A stretch of DNA of 64,000 nt from Nostoc sp. PCC 7107 (GTDB lineage: Bacteria; Cyanobacteriota; Cyanobacteriia; Cyanobacteriales; Nostocaceae). Where the stretch lies: the NCBI RefSeq assembly GCF_000316625.1, contig NC_019676.1, positions 269,501 to 333,500 of the forward strand. Direction: 5' to 3'. This document shows positions 36,538 to 47,649 of the stretch, piece by piece. Below the pieces are notes generated by a model that ran no database searches, had not been told where the DNA came from, and worked only from the letters and a program-made list of their open reading frames with translations. The translations under genes were made by a program, and so were the position numbers. Each line of letters begins with the position of its first letter. Positions within the stretch are counted from its first letter, which is position 1.

Positions 36538-36741
36538 CTTAAATTACTCAAATAATAAAAGTAAAATTTGAGACCTGGAATTTTCTTGCAAGAATCCAGG
36601 TCTCTGTTTTTATGTTTATTTTCAAGTAAAAATACTGAACTTGGCACAATAATAACAACTATATTATTGAATCTATCTAAAGTACATTTGGCTCGTTTAT
36701 TCCTCAAGCAACAGCCACCAAGATCAAGATTAGGAGATTAC

Positions 36742-37836
36742 ATGGCTTATCGCTACAAAATATTATCTATTGACGGCGGCGGTATTCGCGGTGTTATACC
36801 AGCAATTATTCTCGCTGAAATTGAAAAACGCACGGGTAAACCGATTTGTCAGCTATTTAATCTAATTGCTGGAACTTCCACAGGCGGGATTTTATCTGCT
36901 GCTTTAACTAAGCCACATCCTAGTAATCAAAATCTTCCACATTTTAAAGCAGAAGATTTAATTGATATCTATCGCAAAGAGGGAAAGCGGATTTTTGCAG
37001 AATCTACACTAGCAAAAAGCATCAAAATGGATGATATTTTAAAAGCAAAATATTCTTCAAAAGGCCGAGACGAAGTTTTAACAGAATATTTGCAAGATAC
37101 TTTTATTAAGAAAGCATTAACCGACCTGTTTATCACAAGCTATGACATTGAATTGCGAATGCCTATTTTCTTTGTCAATAATGTAAAAGACCAAAAATTA
37201 GGCGAAAACTTTCGCAAAATTTGTGACGGTTACACTATGAAGCAAGCCGGAATGGCTACATCTGCTGCACCAACTTATTTCAAGCCTTACAAAATTGATA
37301 CAGCTGACCCGACAAATGGGGGTTACTATGCCTTGGTAGATGGTGGTGTATTTGCTAATAATCCTACATCCTTGGCAATTATGGAAGTTTTAATTTCTTC
37401 CGCTAGACCTGATCCGCAACAGCCAGACAAAAAACCATTGACTATTAATGATATTCTAGTAGTTTCATTAGGTACAGGTTCTCTTAATCGTCGATACAAT
37501 TACGATCAAGCTGTGGAATGGGGAATGATTCAATGGGTACAGCCAATGCTAAATATTACTTTGGATGGTAGTAGTGAATCGGTAGCTTGTCAGCTAGAGC
37601 AATTGTTACCACAAGCTGATGGTTATCCTAAACAATACTATCGTTTTCAAAGACAATTAACCAAAGCTAATGACAATATGGATGATGTCAGTCCAGAAAA
37701 TATTAGACGATTGATCACATTAGCACAACAGATTATTGAGCAGAGAGATTCGGAATTAGATCAACTTTGCCAACAGCTAAAACAAGGACTTTATCAGCAA
37801 GAACAGCCAGAAAAATCAGTTCTTGTTGGGATATAA
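36742..37836 (+). CDS. Patatin-like phospholipase
   Basis: A 364-residue patatin: DGGGIRG (11-17), nucleophile Ser46 in GTSTGG and Asp200 in DGGVFANNP; further typical blocks are MATSAAPTYF and VVSLGTGS. I start at ATG 36742 (MAYRYKILSI), 5 nt after AGGAGA; the upstream frame extension is not family-like. It belongs to the plant-type long patatins and has no CD-NTase beside it, so it is not evidently a CBASS effector. A strong terminator follows. Confidence 0.9.
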   Translation: MAYRYKILSIDGGGIRGVIPAIILAEIEKRTGKPICQLFNLIAGTSTGGILSAALTKPHPSNQNLPHFKAEDLIDIYRKEGKRIFAESTLAKSIKMDDILKAKYSSKGRDEVLTEYLQDTFIKKALTDLFITSYDIELRMPIFFVNNVKDQKLGENFRKICDGYTMKQAGMATSAAPTYFKPYKIDTADPTNGGYYALVDGGVFANNPTSLAIMEVLISSARPDPQQPDKKPLTINDILVVSLGTGSLNRRYNYDQAVEWGMIQWVQPMLNITLDGSSESVACQLEQLLPQADGYPKQYYRFQRQLTKANDNMDDVSPENIRRLITLAQQIIEQRDSELDQLCQQLKQGLYQQEQPEKSVLVGI

Positions 37837-37912: not shown

Positions 37913-38140
37913 CTGGTATTTTGTTATCAGTCATAAGTAATAAATTAGTTGGGTTGAGGGATTGAGGTTGAGAAATGTACTTCAGACAAACGGGAACTGG
38001 TATAGAATTTTAGGCGATCGCTACCACTCTAGTTCAAAAATCAAATATGATTCCTAGAGCAGTCATAAATTATTCTTGAATCACAATATACCCAACTTCT
38101 TGAATAATTTAGGTTTCTGGGTATCTTGATTTTCATATAT

Positions 38141-39289
38141 ATGAAAAAAATGATTCATCAACCAATATCACTTAAAAAAATTAATTTCCAAATTAATGGC
38201 TATCTTTTTGTCATTTTAATGTGGCTGGTGAGCAGACTTGTAATTATCATTGCTATGCAAGTTGTTGCTCCTTTAATGTACACATCAGCAGTACATCCAG
38301 ATTGGCAACCTCCATATCCACTGGACTATACTCCTGGTTTTTTTCCTCAACCGAGTTGGGAACTGTTTTCTCATTGGGATGGTAAATGGTATCGCAGTAT
38401 TGCTGTTGAAGGTTATGACTACGCTAATGATGGAAATCAACATTCGATAGCCTTTTATCCTTTATTTCCCTTAATTAGTCGTGGGCTAATGATGTTTGGC
38501 TTACCCTTTGAAGTTGCAGGGACAGTAGTTAACAACTTCTTTTTTTTGGGGGCGCTGCTACTGGTCTATTCTTGGGCAAAAGAACGTCATGGTATTAATG
38601 TTGCAAGATGGACAATAGCTGTAATGGCTTGGTGTCCTTTTTCTTTATACGGTACAGTTATCTATACTGAAGGTTTATTTCTATTTTTGACTACGGCAGC
38701 TTTGCGAGCATTTGATCATCGTCAATATGTCTGGGCTGCTGTTTGCGGTGCGCTGGCTAGTGCAACTCGCGCCACAGGAATTACATTATTACCTACTTTT
38801 ATTTTTGTTGCTTGGCAAGAAAAAAGACCATTAACTGCATATATTACGGGACTCTGTGTCCCATTGGGGCTGATTTCATTTAGCTTATATTGCGCCATTA
38901 ATTTCCAAGATCCTTTAGCATTTGTTCATGTACAAAAGGCATGGGCGCAACCAAGTTGGTGGTATATATTTAACGATGCTATTTCTGTAGGCAAAGATAG
39001 TTTAATTAAAGTTGTGATGGTATTTGGCGGCGGCTACATGTTGTGGTGCTTGCGAACTCATCTGAGTAAAACTGCTGTAGTCTATGGTTTTTGCTCATTG
39101 TTACTCATAATATTTTCTGGAGCGCTGATGTCTATTAGCCGTTATGCTTATGGCATTGTGTCGCTCTCACTAGCATTAGGCTGGTTATTTTCTGCTTACA
39201 ATCGCTGGGGATATCTGATATTAACTTGGTTTGCTGTATTACTCTTTTCATATTCCTTTAACTTTACTATTTGGAATTGGGTGGCGTGA
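38141..39289 (+). CDS. PIG-V-like membrane mannosyltransferase
   Basis: A 382-residue polytopic membrane protein (about nine hydrophobic segments). The large loop after the first helix carries WELFSHWDGKWYRSIAVEGY, with the Asp expected for GT-C transferases, then SIAFYPLFPLISRG. ALASATRATGITLLPTF matches the PIG-V/GPI mannosyltransferase group. Bacterial members are thought to add sugars from lipid-linked donors outside the membrane. The acceptor is unknown. ATG 38141 is preferred over a TTG 15 bp upstream. Confidence 0.8.
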   Translation: MKKMIHQPISLKKINFQINGYLFVILMWLVSRLVIIIAMQVVAPLMYTSAVHPDWQPPYPLDYTPGFFPQPSWELFSHWDGKWYRSIAVEGYDYANDGNQHSIAFYPLFPLISRGLMMFGLPFEVAGTVVNNFFFLGALLLVYSWAKERHGINVARWTIAVMAWCPFSLYGTVIYTEGLFLFLTTAALRAFDHRQYVWAAVCGALASATRATGITLLPTFIFVAWQEKRPLTAYITGLCVPLGLISFSLYCAINFQDPLAFVHVQKAWAQPSWWYIFNDAISVGKDSLIKVVMVFGGGYMLWCLRTHLSKTAVVYGFCSLLLIIFSGALMSISRYAYGIVSLSLALGWLFSAYNRWGYLILTWFAVLLFSYSFNFTIWNWVA

Positions 39290-39588
39290 TATCAATTATG
39301 GGTAGTGCGATAGAGTGTTTTGTAGAGTAATAATTCAGTTGAACATGAGAACTTCTTCTGCGACAAAATTTGATGGGATTGTTATCACAGGACTTACGCA
39401 ACTGTTACAGCGCAATCGCTAATAGGACTTACGCAAAAAACCTTTCAAACTCTTATTTCTCCGTGACCTCTGCGTCTTTGTGGTTCGATTTTTCGTAGCC
39501 TGTGCGTAAGTCTTGTCTAAATTATAGTACCTATGTACCAATAAGATAGATAATAGAAAGGTATTGCTGAAATTAGTCACACTTTCTC
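39290..39588. other. Gap before the defence island, holding a MITE-like element
   Basis: 299 bp: the tail of the PIG-V gene region, one isolated GGACTTACGCA at 39390-39400, the complete element at 39425-39512, then about 75 bp that must hold the helicase promoter. Confidence 0.5.
39425..39512. repeat. MITE-like element with GGACTTACGCA / TGCGTAAGTC ends, copy 2
   Basis: An 88-bp element with near-perfect 10-bp terminal inverted repeats. The interior (TTATTTCTCCGTGACCTCTG, CGTCTTTGTGGTTCG) matches 9007-9095 in reverse complement and, in part, 19253-19318. It lies immediately upstream of the PLD-helicase gene. Confidence 0.7.
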
Positions 39589-42504
39589 ATGCCTCGTAAG
39601 CCTAAGCCGAAGTTAGCATTAGTTTTACAGTATAATCCTGATGGTCAGCCTATTGCAGGTGTCGGCCCTGGTGTTGGATTAGAGTTTATCAAAGCCTATT
39701 TTCCCGAAGCTCAAAATATAATTCGTATTGCTAGTGCTTACTTTAGCCTAGTTGGATACAAGTTGGGTCGTAAGTATGTGGCATCAGACATACAATTTCA
39801 AATCTTAGTTGGTCGGGAGGAAGGAAAACATGTCCGAGCCACTGTCATTGATGAGATTATGGCAGATTTGGGGCAGTGTGATACAGATCTGTGGAAAACA
39901 GTTTTTGAATTAGTTGAACGCATGAAATCCGGACGCTTCATTATTCGAGATGCCCGCGAAATGCAAGTGCCTTTTCACTGTAAATTTTACATCTGTGATT
40001 CAAAGCTAATATGGCATGGTTCATCAAACTACAGTCGTAGGGGACTTTGCCAATCAGCTGAGCAAGTGAGCGTTAGCCACGATTCTGAGCGGATCTGTTT
40101 GTTTACAAATTGGTATGATGATGTTGCTCAAAATGCCCAAGATTTACTGGCTGAACTGATCAAAAAGTTAGAGGATTGGCTTAATCTCGCCACCCCATTC
40201 GAGGTATATCTCAAAACACTTTTTCTGCTAAATAACTTAGCTGAATATCCTTTGTGTTTAGGTGCTTATTCTCCTGTGTATTATCAGAAGGGTGTAATTG
40301 CACGCGCTCTTCGTCAAGCTAATGAGTATGGTGGCGCACTTATTATAGCTGCGACTGGATTAGGTAAGACTGTTATAGGTGCTGAAATTGCTTTGCGTTT
40401 GCAACCAATAGGCAGAACCAGTCTAGTTATTTTAATTGCTCCTAGCGGAGTACGCGAAAATTGGGAACAGCAGCTTGAAAATCGCAATGTTTACTTTAAG
40501 TTTTTTAACATTGATCTGCTGTTTCGCAAAGCTTCTGAGGAATCTCGCCATCTAACAACCCAGCTAGAGAAGTTGCTTCAACGAGCTAATGATAATACTG
40601 TAATTATTATTGATGAGGCTCACTTCTATCGAAATGAACTTCTACGGGAGAAATCCAATCGTGGTAAGAGTTTGGTTTATGAACGTATAGTACCAGCAGT
40701 CAAAGCAGGTGCAAAAATCTTTCTTCTCACGGCTACAGCATACGGCACAGATTACTTAAATCTTAATAGTTTACTATATCTTCTACCTCATCGGTTTTAC
40801 AAACCTAATCTATTGGAAGAGCAAATTCCTTGGGAAATTATTGATGCCGAAGAGTTTTCCCGCTTACCAATTGTGACTATTTTGGGGTTACCTCATGTCT
40901 TACAAATGGCTCGAAACAGAGGTGATATTGATACAAACGGACGAACTTTTATTCAGTTTGGTGATGAACGACGTTATCTACCAAAAAGCCTCAAGCTACA
41001 TTCGTTACGTTACCAGTTGTTCTTGCAGCCTGAACTACAAGCTGCTTTTGATCGCCGTTGTTTTGATCAAGCTTTTAAGTCTCCACATAAATGGTTTGAT
41101 GATGACAAAATGGCTTTATGCGAGAGTGCGATCGATACAGTGTATAATTCTTCACTTACAAACTGGCTTAGTTCACCTGTAGCAATGGCATACAGTATTG
41201 AACAAAACCTTGCGACATTAAGCTATTGTGAGCAAACAGAAGACTCCTCTCAACTCACTCTAAATCTATGGGAACAGTCTGCTACTGATATTCATAATCA
41301 AGAACATCGTTCTTTTAACGTGCTTGATACACAAAATCGGTCTCATAAAACACCGATGTATCTAAGCTTAGAAGAGCGTAGGAATACTCTGATACCACTA
41401 TTGGCACGGCTTACGCAGAGTAACTACACAGATGACAAGTTTCTGAAATTGCAGAACATTATTGAGGAGCATTGCCTAGATACAAGGGGTAAAGTAATCA
41501 TATTTGTCAAGAGATATCTTACTGCCCAGTATTTACTAAGTATGTTGGAGAGAAGATTTAGTGAGGTACTTAGGATTGGTTGTACAGTTGAAACGGATGA
41601 AGGTAATCTGCGATTAAAAGCTGGATTACAGCGTTCTGAAGTACTAAAACAGTTTTCACCACGTTCTCATAATTACAATGCCAGCCGAGAGTATGACGTA
41701 CTAATTTGTACTGATGCAGATGGTGTAGGTGTTAATTTACAAGATGCTGATACTGTGGTAAACTACGACCCACCCGAAGGAGCGGATGAGCTATTTCAAA
41801 GGGCAGGTAGAGTGTTGAGGATGACCGCAAATTCTGAACGAGTGCTTCAGTTCTATACACTTGTACCGTTAATCATAGATCAAACAGACAGCCTCTCCCG
41901 CGTACAAAACGATATCTGTAAGAGATTTACTCGCATTGCTCATCGCCACAATAAATCGAAACGCATTTTGAGATCTGGTGTCATATCAGAAGAAGAACAC
42001 TCTGAAATCACGCTTGATAGCGATTTGGATGTGGAGCAACTTACACGAGATAGTCAATTTTTAAAAGATATTGGTGGACTTGGTGCTGAATCCATGCTGA
42101 CTCATGTAGCAGTGCTTGAACAATACCGGAGTCGTGCAGAAGAACTGCCAGAATATTTACTGAGTGCAAGGAGCTATTCCAAACCTCAATCTCGTATCTT
42201 TGTACTGCTTAAGTATGAAAGCAAGTATTGTCCCATACTTTTCAACTTGTCAAGCAAAAAGCTTGAAAAGCAAGATGAACTTGTTATTCTTGACTTAATT
42301 GCTTGTATAAAATCAGAACCTTGTGCCGCAATTCAAGCTGCTGAGATTGAGAAGATAGCTAACCAAGCTGCCCGTGCTTGGTGTGATTTTGAGAATATTT
42401 CGATAGATCAGGTAAGCAAAATTTGTGGTCTTTATCTCGTACCTCTTGACAAGACAGCAGAAATAAATCGGTTGCTAAATGACACTTCTAACGATGAAGA
42501 ATAA
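39589..42504 (+). CDS. PLD-nuclease/superfamily 2 helicase fusion (defence-type)
   Basis: A 971-residue fusion. Residues 30-195 form a phospholipase D-type nuclease domain with a single HxK motif (His130-Lys132 in FHCKFYICD) and the following GSSNYSRRG, so it would need to dimerise. Residues 240-400 are helicase domain 1: Walker A ATGLGKT (255-261), DEAH at 342-345, TATA at 381-384. Residues 590-750 are helicase domain 2: VGVNLQDADTVVNYDPP and QRAGRVLR (737-744). The 230-residue tail is unassigned. The mix recalls the PLD-helicase of ATP-dependent restriction systems such as NgoAVII and the SNF2-like proteins of DISARM. No HIP1 site occurs in its 2.9 kb. Confidence 0.88.
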   Translation: MPRKPKPKLALVLQYNPDGQPIAGVGPGVGLEFIKAYFPEAQNIIRIASAYFSLVGYKLGRKYVASDIQFQILVGREEGKHVRATVIDEIMADLGQCDTDLWKTVFELVERMKSGRFIIRDAREMQVPFHCKFYICDSKLIWHGSSNYSRRGLCQSAEQVSVSHDSERICLFTNWYDDVAQNAQDLLAELIKKLEDWLNLATPFEVYLKTLFLLNNLAEYPLCLGAYSPVYYQKGVIARALRQANEYGGALIIAATGLGKTVIGAEIALRLQPIGRTSLVILIAPSGVRENWEQQLENRNVYFKFFNIDLLFRKASEESRHLTTQLEKLLQRANDNTVIIIDEAHFYRNELLREKSNRGKSLVYERIVPAVKAGAKIFLLTATAYGTDYLNLNSLLYLLPHRFYKPNLLEEQIPWEIIDAEEFSRLPIVTILGLPHVLQMARNRGDIDTNGRTFIQFGDERRYLPKSLKLHSLRYQLFLQPELQAAFDRRCFDQAFKSPHKWFDDDKMALCESAIDTVYNSSLTNWLSSPVAMAYSIEQNLATLSYCEQTEDSSQLTLNLWEQSATDIHNQEHRSFNVLDTQNRSHKTPMYLSLEERRNTLIPLLARLTQSNYTDDKFLKLQNIIEEHCLDTRGKVIIFVKRYLTAQYLLSMLERRFSEVLRIGCTVETDEGNLRLKAGLQRSEVLKQFSPRSHNYNASREYDVLICTDADGVGVNLQDADTVVNYDPPEGADELFQRAGRVLRMTANSERVLQFYTLVPLIIDQTDSLSRVQNDICKRFTRIAHRHNKSKRILRSGVISEEEHSEITLDSDLDVEQLTRDSQFLKDIGGLGAESMLTHVAVLEQYRSRAEELPEYLLSARSYSKPQSRIFVLLKYESKYCPILFNLSSKKLEKQDELVILDLIACIKSEPCAAIQAAEIEKIANQAARAWCDFENISIDQVSKICGLYLVPLDKTAEINRLLNDTSNDEE

Positions 42505-42762
42505 AATATGAAAATACAAGGTTAATATATACTTGATTTGGTTCAAGCCTAGTTAGTCATAAGTTAAGAAGGCTAACACTGACGTGAGTTCTGCGACGAA
42601 TTAAAAAGTAGCTGGTGCTAATAAATATTAGCTGAGTTTGTCAATAACTAGCGATCGCTCCAGTGTTCTTGCGAGTAGGTGAGTGAATATGCCAGGTGAT
42701 AGAATTAATTTTCAAGCCTTTCCTACTCTGATAAATCTACTCTATCCAAATTGGAGAGCAAG

Positions 42763-43872
42763 ATGGCAAAAGCCTCAAATATACCACCACCAGAACCAGA
42801 AATTACAGATGATCAAAGAGAAGCAGCAGAAGTAGAAATTCGGGAAAAACAAAAAATAGTTGACTACGACACAAAAGAGTATCCAGTGGAAGTGCTTGTC
42901 CAAAAATATAGAGATGGGCTGGATGAGGACGTTAATGAGTTGTATATACCAGACTATCAACGGGAGATGATTTGGGAAGAATCTCGGCAGTCAAAGTTTA
43001 TTGAATCTATTATGCTAGGACTACCAATTCCATATATTTTTGTTGCTGATTTACGACCAAAAGATGATGATGATAGTGATGATGAAGCTCGGTTAGAAAT
43101 TGTTGATGGTACTCAACGTATTCGTACACTAGACAGATTTATAAATAATGAGTTAAAGCTTTGTGAGCTAGACAAACTACAAAAACTTAACGACTTTAAA
43201 TTTAAAGATTTACCACTGGCACGAAGAAGACGCTTCAATCGGGCAACTATTCGGATGATTGTACTAACGGATAAAGCTGATGAAGAAACAAGAAGGGATC
43301 TGTTTGAACGCATCAATACAGGTAGTGTCGAACTAAATGACATGGAGAAGCGTAGAGGTATATCTCCAGGCCCATTTGTTAATCTTCTTGAAGAACTTGC
43401 TAAAGATCCTCAATTTCGCAAGCTATGTCCATTCTCAGAAGCACTTGTTAATAAACGTGAACCAGAGGAATTTGTGTTACGTTTCTTCGCGTACCTAGAT
43501 AACTATAATAAATTTGAAAGACGCGTTAATCTTTTTCTCAATGAATATCTAGAGAAACATAACCATACTGGAATAGACAGAGAAACTATGCGAAATGAAT
43601 TTCACGCAATGTTAAATTTTGTTGAACAATATTTGCCAAATGGATTTAGCAAAAAAGAAGGACATGTAAGAACACCAAGAATTAGATTTGAGGCAATTTC
43701 CGTAGGTGTTGCACTTGCTTTAAGAGAAAAAAGCAATCTTAAACCTAAATCAATGAATTGGCTTGAATCACCAGAATTTAAGGATTACACCACATCAGAT
43801 GCAAGTAACTCCAGACCTAAAGTAATTCGGCGTATCGAGTATGTGCGCGATCAACTTCTCGGTAAAATATGA
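42763..43872 (+). CDS. DUF262 (ParB/Srx-like) protein, GmrS-related, without HNH domain
   Basis: A 369-residue protein with an N-terminal DUF262 domain. YIPDYQREMIWEESRQSKFI and ESIMLGLPIPYIF are the family signature, and VDGTQRIRTL (DGTQR at 115-119) is the nucleotide-binding or catalytic motif usually written DGQQR. ERINTGSVELNDMEKRR follows. There is no C-terminal DUF1524 HNH nuclease, unlike GmrSD, so an effector is needed from elsewhere. The start ATG 42763 has GGAGAG 5-10 nt upstream. The stop overlaps the next start as ATGA. Confidence 0.88.
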   Translation: MAKASNIPPPEPEITDDQREAAEVEIREKQKIVDYDTKEYPVEVLVQKYRDGLDEDVNELYIPDYQREMIWEESRQSKFIESIMLGLPIPYIFVADLRPKDDDDSDDEARLEIVDGTQRIRTLDRFINNELKLCELDKLQKLNDFKFKDLPLARRRRFNRATIRMIVLTDKADEETRRDLFERINTGSVELNDMEKRRGISPGPFVNLLEELAKDPQFRKLCPFSEALVNKREPEEFVLRFFAYLDNYNKFERRVNLFLNEYLEKHNHTGIDRETMRNEFHAMLNFVEQYLPNGFSKKEGHVRTPRIRFEAISVGVALALREKSNLKPKSMNWLESPEFKDYTTSDASNSRPKVIRRIEYVRDQLLGKI

Positions 43873-44567
43873 CAAGTACATTATTTCAGGATTTTAATGA
43901 ACGCTCTAAAGAAGTAAGCAAATATTTTATTTTTTTGAAGACCTTAGAAGATGGCACTACTAAATTAAGTATGCAAGGTAAACAAGGAAACCCAAAAATT
44001 AGAGAAATTGATTCTGAATTAATAAAAACTTTGAAAGCAAGTGGGTTTTTATTGCTCTATAACCTAGTAGAAGCAACAATGCGAAATGCTATCGAAACAA
44101 TATTTGGTGAACTTAGCAGTAAAGGGGTTTCCTACGATCAAATTAGACCTGAACTTAAGAAAATAGTCCTTCAAAACCTTAAAAAACGAAATCCTGACAA
44201 AATATTTTCGAGCATCACAGCTATCTCTATTGATATTATTACTGCTGGATTTGATAAAGAAAATCTATTTTCAGGCAATATTGATGGAAAACGAATCAGA
44301 ATTACGGCGGATGAGTATGGATTTTCACATGCAACTGACTATGCTAAAACAGGACATGGGAGTGATTTAGTAACTATTAAAACAAACAGAAATCTTTTGG
44401 CACATGGCTTTAAGTCTTTTGCAGAGGTAGGACGAGACAAAACTGCTGATGAGCTTTTAAAGATTAAGAGTAAAGTGATTAGATATTTGAGACAAATTCT
44501 ACAAAATATTGAAAAGTATTTAGTTAATAAAGACTATTTGGATTTATCTATTATGGTAAATCCTTAA
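43869..44567 (+). CDS. MAE_28990-like HEPN-domain RNase
   Basis: A 232-residue protein of the MAE_28990/MAE_18760-like HEPN type. The defining Rx4H motif is intact (Arg174-NLLA-His179 in KTNRNLLAHGFKSF) and lies in the predicted active-site helix, as in HEPN endoribonucleases. The N-terminal helical part (LLLYNLVEATMRNAIETIF) is the partner helix of the fold. It is coupled to the DUF262 gene by an ATGA overlap, so equal amounts are made. I infer that it is the toxic RNase arm restrained or triggered by DUF262. The target RNA is unknown. Confidence 0.85.
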   Translation: MTSTLFQDFNERSKEVSKYFIFLKTLEDGTTKLSMQGKQGNPKIREIDSELIKTLKASGFLLLYNLVEATMRNAIETIFGELSSKGVSYDQIRPELKKIVLQNLKKRNPDKIFSSITAISIDIITAGFDKENLFSGNIDGKRIRITADEYGFSHATDYAKTGHGSDLVTIKTNRNLLAHGFKSFAEVGRDKTADELLKIKSKVIRYLRQILQNIEKYLVNKDYLDLSIMVNP

Positions 44568-45604
44568 TGGACAACTTCAAGATGATTGAGTATACTTTGA
44601 GCGATAACTTTGCCTAGTTTAACAGGAACAGCATTTCCAATCAATCGTCCTATATGACTTAAGCTTAAAGCCTCATTAGGGGCTACAAACTCGTAATTTG
44701 CTGGAAAACTTTGTAGTAATGCTGCTTCTCTAAGAGATATAGCCCTATCTTGTTCAGGATGTCCAAAACGACCGTTACCAAATCCAAAACATTGTGTAGT
44801 GATGGTTGGGCTAGGTCGATCCCATTCCATCCGACCATATACCCCAGGATAAGTTTTACCACTCTTTTTTGTATGGCATTCTGCAATTAATTCTCTAGGC
44901 CAATCCCGCCAAGTTCCTCCAGGTTTTGAAGCACGAATACGACGAAGATTCAGATTAGATAGCTTACTGCATAGATGGAGCCGATCTATCTTAGATTTTT
45001 GACCCGCAGCAAGTGGTTCAAGATGTTCAATAGCTTTTCTTACTGTTTCGTATCTTTCTGCATTATGTGTTGGTGGAATTAAGTTAACTTTGCCAAATTT
45101 TGAAGCCAGTAAAACTAATCGCTTTCGAGATTGAGGGATTCCATAATCTAGACAGTTAATTTCATAAGATTCCAAAAAATAGTTTAAATGTTCTAATTTC
45201 TGGATAAATTCATGAAATACTGGATGGTGTTTTAACTGAAGCACATTTTCCATTGAAATAATCTCTGGTTCACATTCTTGTACCAGACGAGCAAAATCCT
45301 GCAAGAGCTTCCACTTTGATTCTCTATCGTTATAACGTCTTGAATAACTTGAAAATGGTTGACAAGGGGCACATCCTGCTAAAACCCTAATACTGCTGTC
45401 AGAAAAATGCTTTGCCAGATCAGAACCGCTAAGATATTCTACATCTTGCAGTATAAATTTTGCTTTGTTATTGTACTCATATGGAAATTTACAAGCTCGA
45501 TCAATATCATATCCAGCTTTGACTGGAAGACCTGCTTGCTCAAACCCATGAGTTAGTCCTCCAGCACCACAAAACAGATCTACTGTAGAGATGCCGCTAG
45601 CCAT
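44564..45604 (-). CDS. DNA (cytosine-5) methyltransferase
   Basis: A 346-residue C5 methyltransferase with all main motifs: I (VDLFCGAGGLTHGF), IV with catalytic Cys81 (CAPCQPFSSYS), VI (MENV, Glu119), VIII (QSRKRLVLLAS), IX (LREAALLQSFP) and X (IGNAVPVKLGK). The target recognition region is about residues 185-280. The recognition site cannot be predicted. Its stop overlaps the HEPN stop by 4 bp on the other strand. Most likely it is the self-marking part of the island; an orphan methylase is the alternative. No HIP1 site. Confidence 0.93.
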   Translation of the reverse strand: MASGISTVDLFCGAGGLTHGFEQAGLPVKAGYDIDRACKFPYEYNNKAKFILQDVEYLSGSDLAKHFSDSSIRVLAGCAPCQPFSSYSRRYNDRESKWKLLQDFARLVQECEPEIISMENVLQLKHHPVFHEFIQKLEHLNYFLESYEINCLDYGIPQSRKRLVLLASKFGKVNLIPPTHNAERYETVRKAIEHLEPLAAGQKSKIDRLHLCSKLSNLNLRRIRASKPGGTWRDWPRELIAECHTKKSGKTYPGVYGRMEWDRPSPTITTQCFGFGNGRFGHPEQDRAISLREAALLQSFPANYEFVAPNEALSLSHIGRLIGNAVPVKLGKVIAQSILNHLEVVH

Positions 45605-45756: not shown

Positions 45757-47649
45757 CTATTCCACCGTTACAGACTTGGCCAAATTTCTTGGTTGATCGA
45801 CATCCAAACCGCGACGGGCGGCGATGTGATAAGCCAATAGTTGTAAAGGTACAACTGTCAGGATGGGTGATAATAATTCATCCACTGAGGATACAGGAAG
45901 TAAATCGTTAAAGATTTCTGCTGCTTCGCCATCGTTGACTGGTGTTACACCAATTAACCGCGAATCTCTGGCTTTAGCTTCTTGGGCGTTAGAAATAACT
46001 TTTTCATACACACTACCAGGAACTGCGATCGCCACTACCGGAACTTTCGCATCTAATAAAGCAATGGGGCCATGTTTCATTTCCCCAGCGGGATAACCTT
46101 CGGCGTGGATATAGCTAATTTCTTTTAATTTCAAAGCCCCTTCTAAAGCAATGGGGAAGTTAATTCCTCTACCTAAAAAGATGAAATCTTGAGTATCAGC
46201 AAATTCGTGGGCTAGGTGTTCTGTTAAACGTTCTTGACTGGCTAAAGTTTCTTCAATTTCTTGAGGAATTTGTCGCAGTCCGTTAATAATTTTCTCTATA
46301 GTTACTTGAGAAACTGTTTGACGACGAGCAGCTAAATCTAAGGCTAAAGCATAAAATGCCATTAATTGCGCGATAAAAGTTTTGGTGGCTGCAACACCAA
46401 TTTCAATTCCGGCTAATGTACTGATGATATGCGGCACCATGTGACCAAGGCTGCTTTCTGGACGGTTGGTAATGCCTAAAAGTCGCGCTTGATATTTCGC
46501 CTCTTGACCTTGGCGGCGTTCTTTTTCCATTGCTAAGGCTGCCAATGTATCAGCCGTCTCACCCGATTGAGTAACACCGATAATTAATGTATTTGGTGTT
46601 AGTGGTGATGGTGCATAGCGATATTCAGAAGCATAGTGTACCTGAGTCGGAATTTCTGCTAATTGTTCTAATAAGTATTTACCAACTAAGGCGGCGTGCC
46701 AACTTGTACCACAGGCGACGATGTGAATTTGTTCTAAATCTGCGTAAAGTGACTCAGATAAGCCGAGGTTAACAGGTGAAGGAGAAGCATCTCCTAAATT
46801 GGAAAAATAAGCTTCTAAATTAGCTCTTACTACTCCTGGTTGCTCATAAATCTCTTTGAGCATGAAGTGTTTGAATCCCTGTTTTTCTACCATTGTGGGA
46901 CTCAAATTGAGCATTCGCGGTTGTTTTTTCAACCTATCGCCAGAAAAGTTATAGATTTCTACGCCCAATGGTGTGAGGCGGGCAATTTCCCCATTGTCTA
47001 AAGGTAATACGGCGCGGGTGTAAGCAACGATCGCCGGCGTATCCGAAGCACAGAAAAATTCACCCTGGCCAAATCCAATCACTAAAGGTGCTTGTTGACG
47101 CACAGCAATTAATTCATCGGGATAGTCAGCCGAAATTATTGCCAGTGCAAATGCCCCATTCAGGTGGTTAACTGCTTGGCGAACGGCTTCCAGGAAGAGA
47201 GATGGGGACGTAGGAAGAAGGGGAGATGGGGGATTCTTTAAATATTCGGCTATTAAATGGGGAATTACTTCAGTATCAGTTTCCGAGCGGAACTCATATC
47301 CTTTTTGTTTTAATTCTTCTCTTAATTCACGGTAGTTTTCAACAATGCCATTTTGAATAACTGCTACTCGCCCCGCCATATCCAGATGCGGATGGGCGTT
47401 ATGTTCTTCTGGTTTACCATGAGTTGCCCAGCGAGTGTGACCAATACCAATGGATGACGGGTTTTCTAGCTGTTCGAGTTTAGAACGCAGGTTATGTAGT
47501 TTACCTTTTGCCTTGATGCAATTAACTTCACCTTCCCAAATTGTGGCTATTCCTGCGGAATCGTAGCCTCTATACTCTAGTTTTTCTAGACCAGACAGTA
47601 AAATTTCTGTTGCTGTTTGAGTGCCTATATACCCAACGATTCCACACAT
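45757..47649 (-). CDS. glmS: Glutamine-fructose-6-phosphate aminotransferase (isomerizing)
   Basis: A 630-residue enzyme making glucosamine-6-phosphate for peptidoglycan and lipopolysaccharide. The N-terminal glutaminase domain has the catalytic Cys2 (MCGIVGYIG), HTRWATHGKP and ENYRELRE. Two SIS domains follow, with CGTSWHAALVGKYLLEQ, VTQSGETADTLAAL and the C-terminal DQPRNLAKSVTVE. A Pro-rich insertion at about 130-150 (NPPSPLLPTSPS) is lineage-specific. No ribozyme or riboswitch is seen upstream. Confidence 0.97.
   Translation of the reverse strand: MCGIVGYIGTQTATEILLSGLEKLEYRGYDSAGIATIWEGEVNCIKAKGKLHNLRSKLEQLENPSSIGIGHTRWATHGKPEEHNAHPHLDMAGRVAVIQNGIVENYRELREELKQKGYEFRSETDTEVIPHLIAEYLKNPPSPLLPTSPSLFLEAVRQAVNHLNGAFALAIISADYPDELIAVRQQAPLVIGFGQGEFFCASDTPAIVAYTRAVLPLDNGEIARLTPLGVEIYNFSGDRLKKQPRMLNLSPTMVEKQGFKHFMLKEIYEQPGVVRANLEAYFSNLGDASPSPVNLGLSESLYADLEQIHIVACGTSWHAALVGKYLLEQLAEIPTQVHYASEYRYAPSPLTPNTLIIGVTQSGETADTLAALAMEKERRQGQEAKYQARLLGITNRPESSLGHMVPHIISTLAGIEIGVAATKTFIAQLMAFYALALDLAARRQTVSQVTIEKIINGLRQIPQEIEETLASQERLTEHLAHEFADTQDFIFLGRGINFPIALEGALKLKEISYIHAEGYPAGEMKHGPIALLDAKVPVVAIAVPGSVYEKVISNAQEAKARDSRLIGVTPVNDGEAAEIFNDLLPVSSVDELLSPILTVVPLQLLAYHIAARRGLDVDQPRNLAKSVTVE

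Follow-up and report, generated by a model that had tools for sequence, protein, structure and literature searches.

The window analysed here, a 64,000-nt stretch of the genome of Nostoc sp. PCC 7107 (G000, a single contig of 6.33 Mb), carries two independent modules in a variable slot flanked by glmS on one side and a conserved gene pair on the other: a single gene specifying a protein with a phospholipase D (PLD) nuclease domain and a superfamily 2 (SF2) helicase, and a cassette of three genes specifying a DUF262 protein, a HEPN protein and a C5 cytosine DNA methyltransferase. We put at about 0.5 the probability that both modules act against phages and that the cassette works as a methylation-gated DUF262 sensor that fires an RNA-cutting HEPN protein. 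A preliminary description of the locus had placed all four genes in one candidate undescribed defence system, in which methylation marks self DNA, the PLD-helicase attacks unmarked DNA and the DUF262 and HEPN proteins give a second, RNA-directed response. Its account of the gene content was accurate, and all four genes are intact open reading frames (ORFs) where it had placed them (ORF list and Pfam). The features are as follows; coordinates, here and below, are positions in the window unless another locus is named.

39589..42504, + strand: PLD-nuclease/SF2-helicase gene, 971 aa (ORF list and Pfam), outside the cassette
39517..42590, + strand: helicase DNA unit common to related genomes, the gene with 72 bp 5' and 20-86 bp 3' (blastn)
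42647..45604, no single strand: three-gene cassette (DUF262, HEPN, methyltransferase), by DNA homology to L035, L055 and L056
42763..43872, + strand: DUF262 (GmrSD_N) gene, 369 aa, or 373 aa from an alternative TTG start at 42751
43869..44567, + strand: HEPN_MAE_28990 gene, 232 aa, Rx4H intact
44564..45604, - strand: C5 cytosine DNA methyltransferase gene, 346 aa, convergent with the DUF262-HEPN pair
45757..47649, - strand: glmS, whose 3' end borders the variable slot holding both modules
38126..39289, + strand: chromosomal gene flanking the slot on the side opposite glmS, kept in a relative (G428, locus L198) at 93%

Two separate modules in a variable slot beside glmS

DNA comparisons separate the helicase gene from the cassette. 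The helicase unit is 94.8-96.2% identical to its counterparts in L170-L172 (blastn), with homology running from 39517 to 42524, 42530 or 42590, and the homology of the cassette with L035, L055 and L056 starts at 42647-42655 and continues through glmS at 89-90% identity. Each module also lies beside glmS without the other: the helicase in G308, where the trio is not found there, and the trio in G167, Nostoc NMS4 (L055) and N. flagelliforme (L056), with no helicase within the stretch available and, for G167, no helicase match in the whole genome. Because homology breaks between 42590 and 42647 and each module occurs alone beside glmS, we interpret their adjacency in the window as a meeting of two mobile modules.

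The co-occurrence check proposed in the preliminary description leads to the same separation. Among 292 genomes of the phylum, the helicase was found in five (E<=1e-20), and only the window genome and G099 have both helicase and HEPN genes, which in G099 are 1.4 Mb apart; the helicase adjoins one of the 21 HEPN genes in these genomes, namely the window's own. It was found beside none of 80 further HEPN loci (up to 6 kb per side), and the DUF262, HEPN and cassette methyltransferase genes were absent from all 22 helicase loci (tblastn, E<=1e-5; some loci end at contig edges). Across 217 genomes of the window's family, 15 gave helicase matches at E<=1e-30; besides the window, G308, G427 and G469 have a full-length protein at 94-95% identity, and there is one further fragment at 93%. 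In the genomes searched, the four genes are thus refuted as a conserved set, and the proposal that the PLD-helicase attacks unmarked DNA within the same system finds no support, as its nearest relatives occur without the other three genes. We rejected the four-gene system as a candidate, the helicase adjoining the trio in the window only.

The helicase protein has the domains first ascribed to it (Pfam PLDc_2, residues 37-175, ResIII and Helicase_C, with HxKx4D and DEAH motifs). PADLOC profiles match it weakly and over part of its length (best, 5.6e-19 to 'HKD+Snf2'), and no match was found to SRA or DUF3427 families at E<=1 (Pfam) or, by sequence, to solved chains at E<=1e-5. It falls well short of DISARM (defence island system associated with restriction-modification), scoring 60.6 bits against a DrmD cut-off of 610, although the cassette methyltransferase does match DrmMII (5e-92). 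Its domain order, PLD then SF2 helicase, is that given for SauUSI in the available text of PMC7913695, without the SRA/DUF3427 match; unlike NgoAVII/CglI, in which the PLD and SF2 domains are split over two proteins, it is one chain. By its architecture this independent single-gene module is restriction-like. One distant relative (L033, genome G197) adjoins a pPIWI-RE gene set and another (L034, G080) adjoins genes for an SNF2 helicase and an Eco57I-type methylase; separately, ~45 bp lie between the end of a very large DEAD/DEAH helicase gene (L168:1-4744) and the DUF262 gene that follows it in a Roseomonas trio.

Downstream of glmS, the 18 relatives examined differ in what the slot contains. 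Four loci (L200, L202, L207 and L210) share a Tn7-like gene set, of which TnsA, a TniB-like ATPase and TniQ/TnsD were identified in L207, and three (L201, L203 and L204) have in common a large protein that was recognised in L201 as NACHT-HEAT. The 3' end of glmS is the Tn7 target site. Tn7-like ends (recognised by eye and tested in L198 only), a TnsA/TniB/TniQ-type set, or both, stand at this position in L194, L198, L200, L202, L207, L210 and L211, and in G428 such an end directly follows glmS. We rejected the modules of the window as Tn7-like cargo bounded by the relatives' end sequence, for that end type only: there were no window matches at <=3 mismatches.

On the far side of the slot, the gene at 38126..39289, provisionally labelled 'PigV' (Pfam gave no match), and its patatin neighbour are 93% and 96% identical, respectively, to genes in G428/L198, where other genes lie between this pair and glmS. 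This neighbour, a patatin-like phospholipase at 36568-37836, resembles lipases of CBASS (cyclic oligonucleotide-based antiphage signalling systems) below the curated cut-off (177.6 against 200 bits), and we rejected it as a component of CBASS: kept with its neighbour in G428, whose slot holds other genes, it has the look of chromosomal flank.

A recurrent and mobile three-gene cassette

The DUF262, HEPN and C5 methyltransferase genes belong together across phyla as a recurrent cassette. Matches to HEPN, DUF262 and the methyltransferase were obtained in 19 (E<=1e-4), 20 (E<=1e-30) and seven (E<=1e-60), respectively, of the 292 genomes. A DUF262 gene adjoins 20 of the 21 HEPN genes, the sole one without such a neighbour (in G268) being a 25-bit match with five stop codons, and a methyltransferase gene adjoins five, window included. 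The five methyltransferase matches at E<=1e-130, the window's among them, all adjoin the pair; the weakest two of the seven methyltransferase genomes (G146 and G216, 40-42% identity) have no HEPN match. The 80 further HEPN loci were the best 80 of 173 relatives found with one peptide pattern, and distant members are therefore under-sampled. DUF262 adjoins HEPN in 79 of them, with the exception (L128) ending at a contig edge, and a methyltransferase ORF of >250 aa adjoins the pair in 30. In the window the DUF262 and HEPN genes overlap by 4 bp, as do the HEPN and methyltransferase genes (ORF coordinates); among the loci from the cyanobacterial scans, the methyltransferase gene is co-directional with the pair in G002 and in a Verrucomicrobiales locus (L134). 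The motifs (V/I)DG(T/S)QR and Rx4H are kept in the 11 trios compared.

The trio is mobile and not rare. It was present in 10 of 12 further annotated pair loci that we opened: a Klebsiella plasmid (L166), two Roseomonas plasmids (L168 and L212), three E. coli P2-like prophages (L186, L213 and L214), where it lies between portal and replication genes, two E. coli lambdoid prophages (L187 and L215), where it lies beside the Q antiterminator gene, Moraxella phage Mcat26 (L188) and P2-like phage P2_4B2 (L189), whose methyltransferase is annotated at only 705 bp. The remaining two, on an E. coli plasmid (L167) and a Polaromonas plasmid (L169), have the pair, with the methyltransferase not among the annotated genes. 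The methyltransferase gene is convergent in nine of the ten trios and co-directional in L212. A hotspot between gpA and gpQ of P2 is described in the part of Rousset 2022 available (PMC9122126). The Klebsiella cassette was matched at 60-80% identity in 204 of 5426 E. coli genomes, nine of them over at least 80% of its length, and the L187-type cassette over at least 80% of its length in 106 of 5426 complete E. coli genomes; the query contained the methyltransferase, so these counts give no share of trios among E. coli pairs. L213 and L214 were matched on the methyltransferase alone, yet carry the pair.

Pairs without the methyltransferase often lie among ordinary chromosomal genes, judging by the recurrence of aconitase B and a ClpB/ClpC-type ATPase as neighbours (12 and five, respectively, of the 89 nearest ORFs of the 50 such loci); some neighbours match defence models. 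Replacement of the C5 enzyme by another methyltransferase was rejected as a rule, two of the 89 ORFs matching N6_N4_Mtase (among the best 25 of 105 Pfam families). One of the two is at L077:6787-7761, where an adenine-type DNA methyltransferase gene stands directly downstream, on the same strand, of a pair that has no C5 enzyme. A minimal version also recurs, with a short DUF262 protein (~175-187 aa, to about residue 187 of the window protein), HEPN and no methyltransferase (L076, L078, L080, L083-L086, L088, L091, L099 and L117, as well as L036 and L052). In N. flagelliforme (L056:4841-6004) DUF262 is split into two ORFs of 296 and 87 aa beside an intact methyltransferase gene, and the window genome has a second DUF262 gene, 33% identical, at G000:C1:1541111-1542094.

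Exchange of the HEPN gene in cyanobacteria

A new observation here is that in cyanobacteria the HEPN gene was swapped while the DUF262 and methyltransferase genes stayed together. Trees were built from intact ORFs (64 DUF262 and 76 HEPN rows, with 60 loci having both and 27 all three), and three contig-edge loci were omitted from methyltransferase label counts. On the same 58 loci, methyltransferase presence requires five changes on the DUF262 tree and eight on the HEPN tree, against ~19.5 in shuffles; on larger, unmatched sets the counts are five and 10. Tree-distance correlations among the 27 cyanobacterial trios are 0.67 for DUF262-methyltransferase, 0.29 for DUF262-HEPN and 0.21 for HEPN-methyltransferase (bootstrap intervals of the differences, 0.13-0.66 and 0.21-0.72). 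As a control, DUF262 and HEPN correlate at 0.85 in 33 pairs that have no intact methyltransferase (two at contig edges).

One pair of loci captures the exchange directly. Between L069 and L123 the DUF262 and methyltransferase proteins are 89% and 94% identical and the HEPN proteins 52%; per 100 columns, DNA identity is 80-99% in DUF262, 53-67% in HEPN and 91-100% in the methyltransferase gene, with one 75% transition block. The dip is confined to HEPN, though HEPN is the middle gene. From these correlations and the L069/L123 pattern we conclude that cyanobacterial DUF262 and methyltransferase genes stay together while HEPN can be exchanged, the pattern that a sensor and mark plus an effector would be expected to show. 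Partial extra copies of DUF262 upstream of the cassette in Hormoscilla (L063 and L064), and of HEPN after or within HEPN in Okeania (L072 and L127), are possible traces of part exchange.

Topology tests bear on this coupling, and proteobacterial trios temper it. In the approximately unbiased (AU) test, on groups that were picked after the trees were seen, HEPN data reject a 20-row DUF262 clade (support 100) with a p of 1.5e-6. The methyltransferase data speak against both clades, mildly in the case of DUF262 (p 0.035) and with greater force in the case of HEPN (p 0.00017). In nine proteobacterial trios, pairwise identities correlate more closely for DUF262-HEPN (0.97) than for DUF262-methyltransferase (0.81), and in 33 distant pairs of these trios the values are 0.59 and 0.27. 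As the proteobacterial trios do not repeat the coupling, it is not general, and we rejected it as a general rule.

Proposed working of the cassette and its alternatives

PF03235 is the only Pfam match above cut-off in the DUF262 protein, and DUF1524/HNH families, the usual nuclease domain noted as missing at the outset, gave none at E<=1. Its predicted model resembles the N-domains of a ParB-CTPase, BrxU and SspE, and it is likely, on the strength of this model, to be an NTP-switched DNA sensor that has no nuclease of its own. The HEPN protein matches PF18737 (HEPN_MAE_28990, 6.8e-57) and has the expected R174-x4-H179, in which H179 is invariant and R174 nearly invariant in alignments; it is likely an RNase effector, judging by this motif. 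Its best PADLOC match (Csx1/Csm6, E 0.0016) is no confident model, and its profile gave chance-like matches only against PDB sequences. The methyltransferase, on the minus strand, matches the C5 DNA methylase family (5.7e-56) and converges on the pair, again as first described.

Parts of this arrangement are known. The HEPN survey table of Anantharaman 2013 (PMC3710099) lists MAE_28990 as 'In operon with a ParB nuclease and DNA methylase genes'; the window has the same HEPN family with the same three partners, adjoining one another, while in the part of that paper available the operon is a table entry and neither an effector swap, a distribution on mobile elements nor a functional test was found. 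PD-T4-2 likewise comprises DUF262 and HEPN genes, two in all (available text of PMC10952713), and its deletion raised T4 plaquing in native E. coli (Vassallo 2022, PMC9519451, as far as the accessible sections go). Its description there is without the methyltransferase that the window trio has. A PADLOC profile scan, also proposed at the outset, gave NsnA, PD-T4-2_A, DrmMII and the weak 'HKD+Snf2' among the matches listed (the best 25 rows for the helicase and the methyltransferase). The window DUF262 protein is closer to NsnA of Menshen (1.8e-58) than to PD-T4-2_A (8e-36, over most of its length), and the window HEPN protein gave no match to PD-T4-2_B at E<=1; among four scanned relatives, one Roseomonas HEPN protein alone matched PD-T4-2_B, weakly (0.017). 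In Menshen (NsnABC) DUF262 is paired with a predicted OLD nuclease, according to the same partly available source (PMC10952713), where the window has HEPN instead, a protein that matches neither the NsnB nor the NsnC profile; a literature search on Menshen with NsnA found nothing. GmrSD, BrxU and SspE (DUF262-DUF1524) share the DUF262 nucleotide-switch domain and differ in the HNH nuclease domain, missing from the window protein, whose neighbour is a separate HEPN protein; the DUF1524/HNH hallmark of GmrSD type IV enzymes gave no Pfam match there at E<=1. SspE works with a separate DNA-modification system. No profile named for the trio turned up in PADLOC, NCBIfam or PHROGs, in the last of which the DUF262 and HEPN families are of 'unknown function', and no experiment on the trio was found in a literature search covering neither most subscription papers nor any supplements. 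'Undescribed' therefore holds for experiments on the trio, less so for the gene set, given the 2013 table and the tested PD-T4-2 pair, both as far as their sources were available.

We propose that the DUF262 protein, a ParB/BrxU-like nucleotide switch, would read DNA; that the methyltransferase would mark sites in the cell's DNA, which would then leave DUF262 untriggered; that unmarked incoming or replicating DNA would cause DUF262 to switch on HEPN; and that HEPN would cut RNA and stop the infection, probably by growth arrest. For three genes, leaving out the helicase, the earlier ideas that methylation marks self and that DUF262 and HEPN give an RNA-directed response remain plausible. In a more specific form, the cassette may be a restriction-modification system with an RNase as restriction arm, in which DUF262 and the C5 methyltransferase recognise a common DNA target as a self/non-self unit and HEPN is an exchangeable cartridge, a tentative idea to which we give clearly less credence.

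Several observations weigh against the methylation-gated sensor. The DUF262 model has no Foldseek match at E<=0.001, and neither has the HEPN model among its 410 matches (best E 0.03, among the best 50 of the 410), with Csm6, a HEPN protein, at rank 27 (E 0.85). No C5 methyltransferase ORF adjoins the pair in 50 of the 80 loci (three at contig edges). L114 lost the methyltransferase relative to L129, to which it is 96% identical in DNA over the pair; neither ORF of the pair is disrupted, and the best C5 methyltransferase match elsewhere in the genome reaches 36% identity. With the pair intact and no close substitute, the mark is not an absolute requirement. Of the sister loci L065 and L073, the first has the gene and the second lacks it (L073 has ~2 kb downstream), and L079 and L105 have only remnants of it beside intact pairs.

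These losses, a recent one with the pair intact included, would suit a type IV-like scheme, in which DUF262 recognises phage-modified DNA and fires HEPN while the methyltransferase is accessory, for example as protection against other restriction enzymes. GmrSD and BrxU provide precedents for such a DUF262 protein, and PD-T4-2 protects against T4 (PMC10952713, PMC9519451, both in their available parts). We nevertheless regard this scheme as rather unlikely: the sensor would have to be blind to the resident 5-methylcytosine methyltransferase, the enzyme is kept in 30 of the 80 loci and in 10 of the 12 loci opened from plasmids, phages and E. coli, and in cyanobacteria it is co-inherited with DUF262. 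Improbable, too, is a guard arrangement as in PrrC, where DUF262 (or the methyltransferase) silences HEPN and releases it when a phage inhibits or saturates the modification system. Although proposed generally for HEPN genes tied to restriction-modification systems (PMC3710099, available part), it sits poorly with the exchange of HEPN between DUF262 partners in cyanobacterial trios, since tight inhibitory contacts would resist exchange. We think no better of a plain toxin-antitoxin pair, with DUF262 neutralising HEPN and the methyltransferase a passenger; two adjoining genes, mostly overlapping or abutting and nearly always together, with tight co-inheritance (r 0.85 in pairs without methyltransferase and 0.97 in proteobacterial trios), would suit it, but the coupling of DUF262 and HEPN is weak in cyanobacterial trios (0.25-0.29) and, across phyla, the pair is repeatedly accompanied by the methyltransferase. 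A four-gene system with the PLD-helicase as DNA-attacking arm, suggested by a common strand, a gap of ~250 bp and a common slot, is very improbable given that helicase and trio are separately mobile, that each stands beside glmS without the other, and that none of the 80 HEPN loci has the helicase.

If the methylation-gated sensor model is true, a DNA methylation mark would control an RNase, and a unit of three genes would unite restriction-modification with abortive infection. With copies present in E. coli prophages and HEPN swaps existing in nature, the model is readily testable. Should HEPN further prove to be an exchangeable cartridge, such a system would occur both in cyanobacteria and in temperate E. 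coli and Moraxella phages.

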